Shown: positions 6,827 to 50,278 of the stretch, piece by piece
Numbering within the stretch: position 1 is the stretch's first letter
Layout of the letters: the number at the start of each line of letters is the position of its first letter
DNA from: Terriglobia bacterium
Lineage (GTDB): Bacteria; Acidobacteriota; Terriglobia; Terriglobales; Acidobacteriaceae
DNA length: 64,000 bases
Reading direction: 5' to 3'
Assembly: GCA_020073495.1 (NCBI GenBank)
Contig: JAIQFD010000003.1
Location: 496,001-560,000 of the forward strand
Notes under the pieces: model-generated
Told to the model about the DNA's origin: nothing
The model's database searches: none
Seen by the model: only the letters and a program-made list of their open reading frames with translations
Made by a program: the position numbers and the translations under genes

Positions 6827-6834
6827 CCTGGTTG

Positions 6835-6870
6835 CCCCACCCTTGTTGCGCAGCGACAGGGTGGGGTTTT
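6835..6870 (+). terminator. REP-like hairpin acting as gltA terminator
   Basis: Arms CCCCACCCT (6835-6843) and AGGGTGGGG (6858-6866) pair over 9 bases and are followed by TTTT. The same hairpin with near-identical loop recurs at 18496-18526, so this is a repeat-family member that also has terminator form. The next gene is convergent and ends 8 bases later. Confidence 0.65.
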
Positions 6871-18456: not shown

Positions 18457-18495
18457 GGCCGCCATTGTAATACGAGATCACGACGGCGGGGTGCC

Positions 18496-18526
18496 CCCAC
18501 CCTTTGTCGCCCAGCGACAGGGTGGG
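18496..18526 (+). repeat. REP hairpin (GGTG-tagged)
   Basis: CCCACCC...TGTCGC and GCGACA...GGGTGGG pair; a GGGTGCC tag precedes it. Loop and inner stem match the hairpin at 6835-6866. Confidence 0.65.
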
Positions 18527-19554: not shown

Positions 19555-19585
19555 CCCATTCTAGCCCTCCTTTGGCTAGGGTGGG
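19555..19585 (-). repeat. REP hairpin
   Basis: CCCATTCTAGCC (19555-19566) and GGCTAGGGTGGG (19574-19585); one mismatch pair. Same family as the hairpins round the RAYT gene. Confidence 0.6.
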
Positions 19586-21430: not shown

Positions 21431-21506
21431 CGCTGCAAGCTTACATCACGTGCGATTCGGTTGTGAGCACAGCGAAGTTCCCAGGCCACCCGCCAGCCGC
21501 CGGGTG

Positions 21507-21539
21507 CCCCGTCCTAGCCCGGTTTTGGCTAGGGCGGGG
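21507..21539 (+). repeat. REP hairpin upstream of RAYT
   Basis: Arms CCCCGTCCTAGCC (21507-21519) and GGCTAGGGCGGGG (21527-21539), preceded by GGGTG. It lies 52 bases before the RAYT start. Confidence 0.75.
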
Positions 21540-21590
21540 AAGTTCCTCGACGTCACAGACAAGCCTTGGGTCCTGCAGTAGATTCTCGCC

Positions 21591-22118
21591 ATGCCTTGGG
21601 GCCTGCGCCGTTTCCAACAATCGCGCCAGTTGCACTTCATTACCTTCAGTTGCTACCGCCGTCGGCCCCTGCTCGATCCCGCCGCGCGCCGCCTCCTGGA
21701 ACGGGCACTCGAGCGGGCACGTGTCGTCTACGGCTTCTTTGTCGCGGGATACGTGGTCATGCCGGAGCACGTCCATATGCTGGTGAGCGAGCCGGAGAAG
21801 GGAACGCTGGCGAACGCACTCCAGGCAATCAAGCAGTCCGTGGCACGGCGGCACATCGGGGACCGTCTGCATTTCTGGCAGGCCCGCTACTACGACTTCA
21901 ACGTCTGGAGCGAGCGCAAGCGCATCGAAAAGCTACGCTACATGCACCGAAATCCGGTGAAGCGAGGACTGGTCGCGCGTCCCCAGGATTGGGAGTGGAG
22001 CAGCTTTCGCCATTACGTGACTGGTGAGAAAGGTGTGGTCGAGATCGAGTCTGAGTGGACGGCGCGCCGACGGGAACGGGGTGCCCCACCCAAGCCTGTT
22101 GTTGGCTTGGGTGGGTGA
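21591..22118 (+). CDS. REP-associated tyrosine transposase (RAYT, Y1 transposase)
   Basis: 175 residues of the IS200-like Y1 transposase superfamily, in the single-copy RAYT branch. The metal-binding HUH motif is in VMPEHVHMLVSEP (about residues 55-67); the catalytic Tyr is probably in FWQARYYDFNVWSERKRIEKLRYMHRNPVKRGLV, a segment highly typical of RAYTs; WEWSSFRHYVTGE follows. RAYTs nick single-stranded REP DNA next to a short tag and are thought to spread REP sequences while being domesticated. Here one REP hairpin lies just upstream and three just downstream, and the last 12 codons run into the first downstream hairpin, so the C-terminus is formed by a repeat. Confidence 0.92.
   Translation: MPWGLRRFQQSRQLHFITFSCYRRRPLLDPAARRLLERALERARVVYGFFVAGYVVMPEHVHMLVSEPEKGTLANALQAIKQSVARRHIGDRLHFWQARYYDFNVWSERKRIEKLRYMHRNPVKRGLVARPQDWEWSSFRHYVTGEKGVVEIESEWTARRRERGAPPKPVVGLGG
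22085..22115 (+). repeat. REP hairpin at the RAYT 3' end
   Basis: CCCACCCAAGCC (22085-22096) and GGCTTGGGTGGG (22104-22115), perfect 12-bp stem, preceded by GGGGTGC. It overlaps the last codons of the RAYT gene. Confidence 0.8.
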
Positions 22119-22164
22119 CGAGTCTGGGGGTGCTCCGATCCTTCTAGGTTGGGTGACAAAACAC

Positions 22165-22197
22165 CCCCGCCCTAGCCAACCCCGGGCTAGGACGGGG
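22165..22197 (-). repeat. REP hairpin, inverted orientation
   Basis: CCCCGCCCTAGCC (22165-22177) and GGCTAGGACGGGG (22185-22197), one mismatch; the GGTG tag is on the minus strand (CACCC follows the hairpin). Confidence 0.75.
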
Positions 22198-22236
22198 CAC
22201 CCTCAAATTTTGTGGTATCGAGAGAAATGTGGGTGC

Positions 22237-22267
22237 CCCACCCAAGCCCGCCTTTGGCTTGGGTGGG
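22237..22267 (+). repeat. REP hairpin
   Basis: CCCACCCAAGCC (22237-22248) and GGCTTGGGTGGG (22256-22267), perfect, preceded by GGGTGC. Together with 22165-22197 it forms an inverted REP pair of the kind called BIME/REPIN. Confidence 0.8.
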
Positions 22268-29455: not shown

Positions 29456-29487
29456 CCCACCCTAGCCAAAATCGGGCTAGGGTGGGG
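29456..29487 (-). repeat. REP hairpin
   Basis: CCCACCCTAGCC (29456-29467) and GGCTAGGGTGGG (29475-29486), perfect, tag on minus strand (GGGGCACCC follows). The remaining gap to 29656 has AGCGCTCGCTCAGGATGAC-type repeat sequence and no gene. Confidence 0.75.
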
Positions 29488-29656
29488 CACCCGCGCCGTC
29501 CATATAAATGTTGTGTGAACCTACGGCTGAAGGCGCTCAGGATGACACAGATGAAGACTTCTGGAGGGGGTAGGGGTCCCATTCGCTCCGCTCAGGGCAG
29601 GCTCTTCGACTCGCGCTTGCCAGACAAGCGCTCGCTCAGGATGACAACGGAATGCG

Positions 29657-47753: not shown

Positions 47754-47872
47754 ATCAATACCTCCGCGGCGGGTGGCCCACCTTTCAGGGCGAGTATAGA
47801 ACCGGGCTGCCTCGCAGGGCGGGTGGCCCAGGCAACGCCGGGTATGTTACATCCCTGTACGGATGGGGGTGC

Positions 47873-47901
47873 CCCACCCAACGCGGTTTTCGTTGGGTGG
47901 G
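47873..47901 (+). repeat. REP hairpin
   Basis: CCCACCCAACG (47873-47883) and CGTTGGGTGGG (47891-47901), perfect, preceded by GGGGTGC. Same family as those at the RAYT locus 26 kb away. Confidence 0.75.
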
Positions 47902-47943: not shown

Positions 47944-47989
47944 TGGTCGGGGCGACAGGATTTGAACCTGTGACCCCCTGCGCCCAAGG
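47944..47989 (-). pseudogene. 3' fragment of a tRNA-Pro(TGG) gene
   Basis: On the minus strand this gives the anticodon loop with TGG, the 3' anticodon strand GCAGG, a variable loop, an intact T arm (ACAGG-TTCAAAT-CCTGT), the 3' acceptor strand CGCCCCG and an encoded ACCA. The 5' half is missing: the bases before the anticodon loop do not pair. A 46-base match with two differences lies at 50196-50241. Such fragments are typical of integration into the 3' end of a tRNA gene. Confidence 0.7.
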
Positions 47990-50195: not shown

Positions 50196-50278
50196 TGGTC
50201 GGGGCGACAGGATTTGAGCCTGTGACCTCCTGCGCCCAAGGCAGGTGCGCTCTCAGGCTGCGCTTACCTGGTTCCCCG
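50196..50278 (-). pseudogene. Degenerate tRNA-Pro(TGG) copy
   Basis: The minus strand shows CGGGG, then an insertion, D arm (GCGC-AGCCTGAGA-GCGC), anticodon arm CCTGC-CTTGGGC-GCAGG with anticodon TGG, T arm with CTCAAAT instead of TTCAAAT, CGCCCCG and ACCA. Compared with a normal tRNA-Pro about six extra bases separate the 5' acceptor strand from the D arm, and T54 is changed, so it is probably not functional. It abuts the glmU stop. A functional copy must exist elsewhere. Confidence 0.65.

Follow-up and report, generated by a model that had tools for sequence, protein, structure and literature searches.

The window, by which we mean the whole analysed stretch of 64 kb, corresponds to C3:496001-560000 in the genome G000 (3.70 Mb, 8 contigs). 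It contains a gene for a REP-associated tyrosine transposase (RAYT) and hairpins of several stem classes, as follows.

6830-6865, plus strand: REP of another stem class, with a GGTTGC tag
18490-18526, plus strand: REP of another stem class (TTTGTCGC..GCGACA), with GGGTGC and one extra C before the stem
19555-19585, plus strand: class-A stem without the tag, with CGGGGC instead
21502-21539, plus strand: class-A REP with GGGTGC tag, stem CCCGTCCTAGCC and a T.G wobble at stem position 5
21591-22118, plus strand: RAYT gene (175 amino acids; NF047646, Pfam Y1_Tnp, 4ER8)
22079-22115, plus strand: class-A REP at the 3' end of the RAYT gene, coding for the last RAYT residues
22165-22202, minus strand: class-A REP of the wobble form, its GGGTGC tag read from the minus strand
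22231-22267, plus strand: class-A REP, inverted pair with 22165-22202
29456-29492, minus strand: dispersed class-A REP with GGGTGC tag
47818-47829, plus strand: outer half-REP GGCGGGTGG-CCC, left end of a class-B1 unit
47867-47901, plus strand: class-B REP (AACG..CGTT stem, not class A) with GGGTGC tag
47944-47985, minus strand: 3'-end fragment of tRNA-Pro (42 nt, 85.7% identical), tail of the class-B1 unit

The ORF at 21591-22118 had been called a RAYT in an earlier note on this DNA, and this assignment was borne out by its product reaching 104.8 bits with the NCBIfam equivalog model REP_Tyr_transpos (NF047646, cut-off 80) and 38.4 bits with Pfam Y1_Tnp (cut-off 23), and by a match to the solved E. 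coli TnpA-REP (4ER8, chain A) with E=3.9e-10. The protein carries the HUH motif EHVH, a WQARYYDFNVW region and the tyrosine motif YMHRNP. All of the best 80 of its 163 relatives are acidobacterial, and we take the relatives, in part from their record titles, to belong to Terriglobia. The related RAYT of locus L049 was matched in 344 of 397 genomes of the order at E<=0.001, a cut-off that lets in more distant Y1 genes too. In the window's own genome, the nearest paralogue is 55-56% identical, and another RAYT of the same kind is encoded at C1:694790-695338, while the RAYT of the genus-mate G001 (L088) is 63% identical. Four further Y1 genes of G000 (C1:526909-527289, C2:797905-798324, C3:140697-141086 and C6:23682-24068) code for products 28-36% identical to the window RAYT; the three that were scanned all exceeded the cut-off of REP_Tyr_transpos, and a search 300-400 nt around all four revealed no hairpin with a [GTC]TGC foot.

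The window RAYT lies among its own hairpins, as had been proposed: four hairpins with a GGGTGC foot surround it, the first ending 51 bases ahead of the ATG and the last two forming the inverted pair described earlier. The three hairpins previously placed downstream of the gene are all present, but the first of them overlaps the last RAYT codons and is directly adjoined by the stop codon TGA (22116-22118). Because a hairpin is missing at that place in four aligned related loci (L008, L009, L010 and L012), the transposase gene seems to have received one of its own REPs at its 3' end by insertion. As for the copies reported farther away, the one at 29456 is correct, the one at 19555 has the stem without the tag, and those at 6835, 18496 and 47873 have other stems. 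Arms of the type CCCACCC(T/A)AGCC, which the earlier note had ascribed to all copies, are replaced at 6835 and 18496 by stems of the TTGT...GACA type and at 47873 by AACG...CGTT. The tag had been given as GGTG, one base off the four bases that stand at the stem, which are GTGC within GGGTGC. Tag and stem had both been regarded as specific for the lineage; this holds for the stem, but the tag is common to most RAYT loci examined. The GGTTGC tag at 6830-6865 is the one found with RAYTs in which N104 is changed to P (see below), and no such RAYT occurs among the aligned proteins of the own genome, one of six being left unaligned. A stem search in the window alone gave 22 matches versus a mean of 13.1 in shuffles, which is weak by itself; the strong test is the hairpin plus the tag, not the stem alone. 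No Rfam family covering the hairpins was found. The window also contains a match to the Acido-Lenti-1 RNA (RF01687; 46103-46150, minus strand) with 41.6 bits at a gathering threshold of 37.

To define the tag, 195 RAYT loci were examined, of which 188 had the motif (7 dropped) and 149 remained after dropping 39 redundant ones (>95% identical). At least one tagged hairpin was called in 140 of the 149 loci, leaving 9 without a called tag. In a search that made no assumption about the tag, most of the hairpins flanking RAYTs already showed a GTGC foot. The sequence xTG[CG] stands beside the stem in 326 of the 397 hairpin places of the 149 loci and belongs to GGGTGC in 234 of these; its final base is C in 305 cases and G in 21. 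The majority foot of the 140 called loci is GTGC in 118, TTGC in 12, GTGG in 8, and CTGC and ATGC in 1 each. Because the tag call demands TG[CG] beside the stem and is blind to GTAG, all feet were also counted without any tag condition, which gave 277 GTGC, 23 GTGG, 20 TTGC and 0 GTAG among 956 entries, both strands of each hairpin being entered. The canonical REP tetranucleotide is GT[AG]G according to passages of PMC6006769, which also describe marginal members as enriched in GTGG, and to an excerpt of PMC3686654. The present clade therefore mostly has C where others have G, and the window hairpins carry GTGC instead of the canonical GT[AG]G foot. Since the RAYT L088, from the same genus and 63% identical, has a GTGG foot, the tag changes even inside a genus. 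The hairpin after the second RAYT of G000 (L003 2072-2112, i.e. C1:695361-695401) has different feet on its two strands, GTGC and GTAG.

The Y1 HUH domain is common to the window RAYT and to IS200/IS605 elements, and the protein gave a weak match to an IS200 model (32.5 bits), so that the locus might be read as an insertion sequence of that type with subterminal hairpins. The match stays below the model cut-off of 55, however, near-identical gene-bearing copies are absent from the genome, where the nearest paralogue is as distant as stated above, and the flanking hairpins are often inverted, with a plus-strand hairpin upstream and a minus-strand hairpin downstream in 98 of the 140 called loci. 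We give next to no credence to this explanation.

The hairpins are polar relative to the tag. In 308 distinct hairpins, the tag strand contains 292 G.T versus 41 A.C pairs (p=8e-48 with symmetric scoring), and stem position 5 shows T.G in 159 of the 308 and the mirror pair C.A in 0; the position-5 T.G is rarer in the own genome (11/55). To judge from these sequences, folding remains possible for the tag strand at places that would be mismatched in its complement. E. coli REP activity requires a stem mismatch, as stated in part of PMC8266576, and the fixed T.G wobble may by analogy be its counterpart. The polarity also bears on the possibility that these hairpins terminate transcription or stabilise mRNA in the ordinary way and stand near the gene by coincidence. 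They are indeed strong and G+C-rich, and REPs elsewhere may stabilise mRNA or end transcription (a section of PMC6006769), but such functions are at odds with a near-invariant GGGTGC tag outside the hairpin, with a wobble that is polar relative to it and with a hairpin copy number that follows matching RAYTs (see below), making this explanation highly improbable.

In the whole genome, the tag-plus-stem pattern GTGCCCCRYYCN{10,36}GRGYGGG matched 48 times and its reversed form 0 times, by which chance hairpins were rejected, although on visual inspection a few of these matches make poor hairpins; a stricter pattern gave 30 matches versus 0 reversed. Class A (W-AGC) comprises 12 copies of the own genome by eye and 11 by the stricter pattern, 4 of the 11 flanking the RAYT, and class B (AACG..CGTT) comprises 17 by eye and 16 by the stricter pattern. 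Other stem classes occur among the 48 matches as well, and the hairpins at 6835 and 18496 represent a third type. Class B is absent in G001 and confined to the window's genome among 52 genomes, with the exception of one palindromic place in G012 that is read on both strands. No RAYT with class-B hairpins within 300-400 nt was found in the own genome. The RAYT gene at C1:694790-695338 has one class-B1 unit about 1.3 kb ahead of it and another 1.8 kb behind it, as well as an inverted sequence resembling the B1 tail upstream; from this arrangement, its product may act on class B. A composite structure of some 300 bp at L214 3830-4130 (G000 C1:696.8-697.1 kb) contains two different REPs and outer half-REPs at inverted ends and looks, by its sequence, like a non-autonomous element; it abuts part of a third REP class, another copy of which flanks the RAYT at C1:694790. 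The 662 kb covered from the sister genomes G004 and G005, picked around REPs already found, contain 44 and 36 tagged hairpins versus 5 reversed. In G019, the genome of L035, there are 196 matches of class E (GTCTC stem).

Class-A hairpins were counted in 52 genomes, and the reversed pattern gave 0 in every one of them. Fifty of the 64 assemblies behind the best 80 of the 163 loci entered these counts, genomes except G000 and G001 having been selected for holding a RAYT of this clade. Dispersed class-A copies had a median of 12.5 in the 20 genomes with a class-A-flanked RAYT versus 0 in the 32 without (p=1.3e-9 by a statistic that ignores kinship, with class membership assigned by hand); the flanking copies were subtracted by script, and subtraction by hand gave an equal median. 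Eight genomes that had copies without a known class-A-flanked RAYT (G002, G003, G008, G020, G021, G023, G028 and G029) were re-searched, and seven of them turned out to have one and belong to the 20; the gene found in G008 has an internal stop, that in G029 is partial, and there is only one flanking copy in G003, G008, G021 and G029. The re-search left out G030, G032 and G050 (3, 4 and 1 copies). The zeros are safe, since a class-A-flanked RAYT presupposes class-A copies in the genome, but for this reason the split follows in part from the way the groups were defined. G020 has 6 class-A copies and no class-A-flanked RAYT among its four fetched loci, and G012 has such a RAYT and 0 dispersed copies. 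In G005, the RAYTs L011 and L012 are flanked by two stems that are both dispersed in that genome; copies of the L012-type stem also occur in G004, from which we know of no L012-type RAYT. Class E was rejected as a second copy-number test, as 38 of the 52 genomes matched and the RAYT flanks of most were unclassified. The pairing of enzyme and hairpins suggested in the earlier note thus finds agreement in copies that follow class-A-flanked RAYTs and disagreement in the nearest relative, G001, which belongs to the same genus and keeps 5 class-A copies with no class-A-flanked RAYT seen, compared to 7 dispersed copies in the window's genome. Judged by these sequence comparisons, the pairing of the window RAYT with its hairpins is supported.

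The dispersal could alternatively be due to recombination, gene conversion or another transposase, with the RAYT only maintaining or using the hairpins. Such processes would fit the REPs of G019, which form head-to-tail arrays of the same orientation with a commonest spacing of 79 nt (e.g. C11:437504-438368), and the expansion of class B without a directly flanked RAYT. The stem-by-stem match with the RAYT flanks across genomes argues against them, and we regard this explanation as rather unlikely.

Traces of movement were sought between G004 and G005, which are about 90% identical in their aligned parts and differ by 36 distinct inserts of at least 18 nt, 3 of them with a tag-like motif and 1 representing a whole clean hairpin. 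Compared to G004, G005 carries one 63-nt insertion that contains a single class-A hairpin; TCTCGC occurs at each of its junctions and a single time in the empty site. REP presence or absence between the two genomes was clean on both sides in one case and ragged in the others. Six further loci were aligned and three inspected raw, revealing a sharp left junction by eye only in L168/L216; one locus, L156/L220, has a shared REP. A rule by which guide bases select the cleavage dinucleotide is known for a group 3 enzyme of Marinomonas (part of PMC8266576), and a GTGC guide is predicted by analogy to select GC or GA. The TCTCGC at the 63-nt insertion ends in GC, which as one event proves nothing. 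The flanks of dispersed copies did not yield a cleavage site, since no base past the hexamer was conserved except at position -8 (55 own-genome copies).

Many REPs are preceded at about 30-55 nt by an outer half-REP, i.e. a second tag plus a copy of the 5' arm. Arm copies with at least 8 of 9 bases were found at 43 of 322 RAYT-flanking versus 8 of 113 dispersed hairpins, some of the 43 being the arm of an adjacent tandem REP; the controls gave 11.6 with arms swapped between loci and 2 in reversed flanks, and 23 of the 43 come after GTGG or CTGG. Of the 196 RAYT-end flanks, 58 contain TGGCCC versus 7 reversed, and G[GC][TC]GGCCC stands upstream of 22 of 46 dispersed REPs in the own genome and 20 of 68 in G004/G005, with 1 and 3 in the respective controls. 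The outer half-REP was rejected as a universal terminus, as it is present in 0 of 10 first-in-array class-E copies of G019 and none was seen at the window RAYT. In 13 of 95 loci, the sequences beyond the two REPs are more alike than 99% of the between-locus pairs (set p=0.016), and because these loci are a minority, inverted ends were not taken as a general feature of the RAYT unit. A lone outer half-REP GGCGGGTGG-CCC without its own hairpin lies at 47768-47779 of the window, immediately ahead of the class-B1 unit.

Eleven class-B1 copies that were identified through their hairpin, with one locus counted twice (window and L121), agree exactly from GGCGGGTGGCCC onwards. In twelve distinct units found by this motif, within which identity is given by construction, the mean pairwise identity is 0.22-0.28 in blocks outside it, and the base just before it is G in 7 and T in 5. 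Seven of the twelve run into tRNA-Pro 3' ends of 24-77 nt, each from the CCA end; the loci concerned are the window (47944-47985), L109, L121, L125, L198, L199, L200 and L203. Two units adjoin tRNA-Pro genes called by ARAGORN, L200 (ggg) and L199 (cgg), and the others end in fragments. Judging from these junctions, class-B1 units may have captured tRNA ends or may insert next to tRNA genes. ARAGORN called no tRNA gene in the 64-kb window, and an Rfam tRNA match of 36.3 bits at 50207-50264 (minus strand), uncalled by ARAGORN, is perhaps a tRNA fragment.

The variation of the tag allowed a comparison with the proteins. The stretch W96-Q-A-R-Y-Y-D102-F103-N104-V-W106 of the window protein aligns with W94-Q-P-R-F-W-E100-H101-A102-I-R104 of the E. 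coli enzyme. N104 pairs with G as first tag base, and P, V or A at this place pairs with T or C. In 137 of the 140 loci, residue 104 is the one expected from tag base -4 (124 N/G, 1 N/other, 2 other/G and 13 other/other). The rule was first noticed in 73 called loci (64/0/2/7) and then kept in 67 more (60/1/0/6), which by design include relatives of the P104 protein L049. A blind scan over 94 columns placed N104 first by raw p (2e-15; runner-up 8e-7), as did tree-based pairs, with 2.45 of 3 changing the same way and 0.00 the other way (runner-up 1.46 and 0.02). E. coli TnpA-REP touches GTAG from beta1, around beta4 and the C-terminus (an excerpt of PMC8266576), and N104 falls in the WQ...R104 stretch that a passage of PMC6006769 names as tag-contacting. 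It is nevertheless quite possible, with a sizeable minority chance, that N104 and the tag base only mark the same few clades and that the residue does not read the base: the covariation goes back to only 3-4 independent switches, too few for a sign test, the tag stays unchanged in some pairings (mean 0.55-0.7 of 3), and the P104 loci of the test set were retrieved with a P104 protein as query. What speaks for reading by N104 is that the tag moves the same way in 2.3-2.45 of 3 pairs on average and the opposite way in 0.0, that N104 stands out among the 94 columns, and that it sits in the tag-contacting region of the E. coli enzyme. F103 (E. coli H101) was rejected as reader of the GG before the tag, with a raw distribution of 114/7/7/12 and a place outside the seven best tree-based columns. 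For the last tag base, S20 is the best raw column and was placed in beta1 by eye. GTGG occurs in 5 of 7 loci without S20, one of the five with mixed tags, and S20 is kept in 3 of the 8 GTGG loci, L309 with GTGG at both hairpins and two with mixed tags; a link of S20 to the last tag base is suggestive only. Since the tag occurs in several variants within a single order and a residue covaries with it, the clade represents a natural mutational series.

We interpret the locus as a REPtron, i.e. a Y1 HUH RAYT (TnpA-REP), present once in this form, together with its own REP family, and assign this reading a probability of roughly 0.78. It builds on what can be seen in the sequences: the gene family, tagged flanking hairpins, their dispersal and dependence on a matching RAYT, the polar wobble and the covariation at N104, along with the one clean hairpin insertion between the sister genomes. 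We infer from these that the RAYT, and not another enzyme, binds, cleaves and moves the hairpins, and that N104 reads the base. The enzyme would most likely bind the single-stranded hairpin on the strand reading GGGTGC-CCC..., recognising it via the GTGC foot and the G-rich bases before it, and the fixed T.G wobble in the stem would in many loci tell the tagged strand from its complement. Cuts at a guide-selected dinucleotide on either side of the hairpin would then allow the unit to be moved or multiplied. A more detailed code for the Terriglobia RAYT/REP systems is tentative, and we would put it a little below even odds. Residue 104 would set the first tag base (G with N; T or C with P, V or A), the last one may be set by residue 20, and GTGC would guide cuts to GC or GA and not to CT. 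The outer tag plus 5' arm (GTGG-CCC...) would mark the left end and could pair with the 3' arm, replacing the inner one, and a fixed left and a loose right end would let units take up host DNA, such as tRNA-Pro 3' ends. We found no description of such a switch of arm pairing between outer and inner copies in the parts of the REP literature that were accessible. Altered tags would in turn predict altered cleavage sites, in a kind of repeat that is common in bacterial genomes.

Compared to known systems, the locus resembles most features of the RAYT/TnpA-REP systems with GT[AG]G REPs from Proteobacteria and other phyla. It shares with them the Y1 HUH enzyme with its Y..NP motif, a gene flanked by its own hairpins, their dispersal, the tag at the stem foot and a stem irregularity. 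It differs in the foot, which is mostly GTGC, also TTGC and CTGC, with GTGG in 8 of the 140 loci, in having F, N and W in the window protein in place of H101, A102 and R104 of E. coli, and in the outer half-REP on many units. The window has one inverted pair, the arrangement that forms the unit in REPINs (inverted REP doublets), and G019 has direct head-to-tail arrays that do not alternate in orientation as REP clusters usually do. The structure of a RAYT with REP DNA comes from one E. coli enzyme in the sources as far as accessible, and we found neither an account of GTGC-tagged or acidobacterial REPs in the open-access literature nor biochemistry of this RAYT clade in the literature. IS200/IS605 elements share the catalytic domain and the guide bases 5' of the hairpin, but the present system has no near-identical gene-bearing copies, and its hairpins are often inverted and dispersed without the gene. 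Quentin et al. 2018 (PMC6006769) report, in the relevant sections, GT[AG]G feet in five subclasses and other feet in 2.6 and class 3. Class 3 TnpA-Y1, as described there, occurs in Acidobacteria among others and has hairpins repeated close to its gene, with some 600 of them in Solibacter, but is distinguished by a Y....Q motif and a CnGA foot from the window RAYT with Y..NP (YMHRNP) and GTGC. Di Nocera et al. 2013 (PMC3733652) set apart acidobacterial RAYT-like genes with flanking TIRs as a sharply defined group (TIRYT/TIRtrons); in the passages concerned, the TIRs are called unrelated to REPs, part of them sharing GGGGWSAS, and one repeated TIR family is noted in Koribacter. Inverted flanks of acidobacterial RAYT-like genes are common to both data sets, which probably coincide, but the flanks seen here are tagged, dispersed REP hairpins and thus not unrelated to REPs. 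We class the system as a RAYT/REP system that departs from one defining feature, the GT[AG]G foot, and the acidobacterial genes once set apart as TIRYT may join the RAYT/REP scheme.
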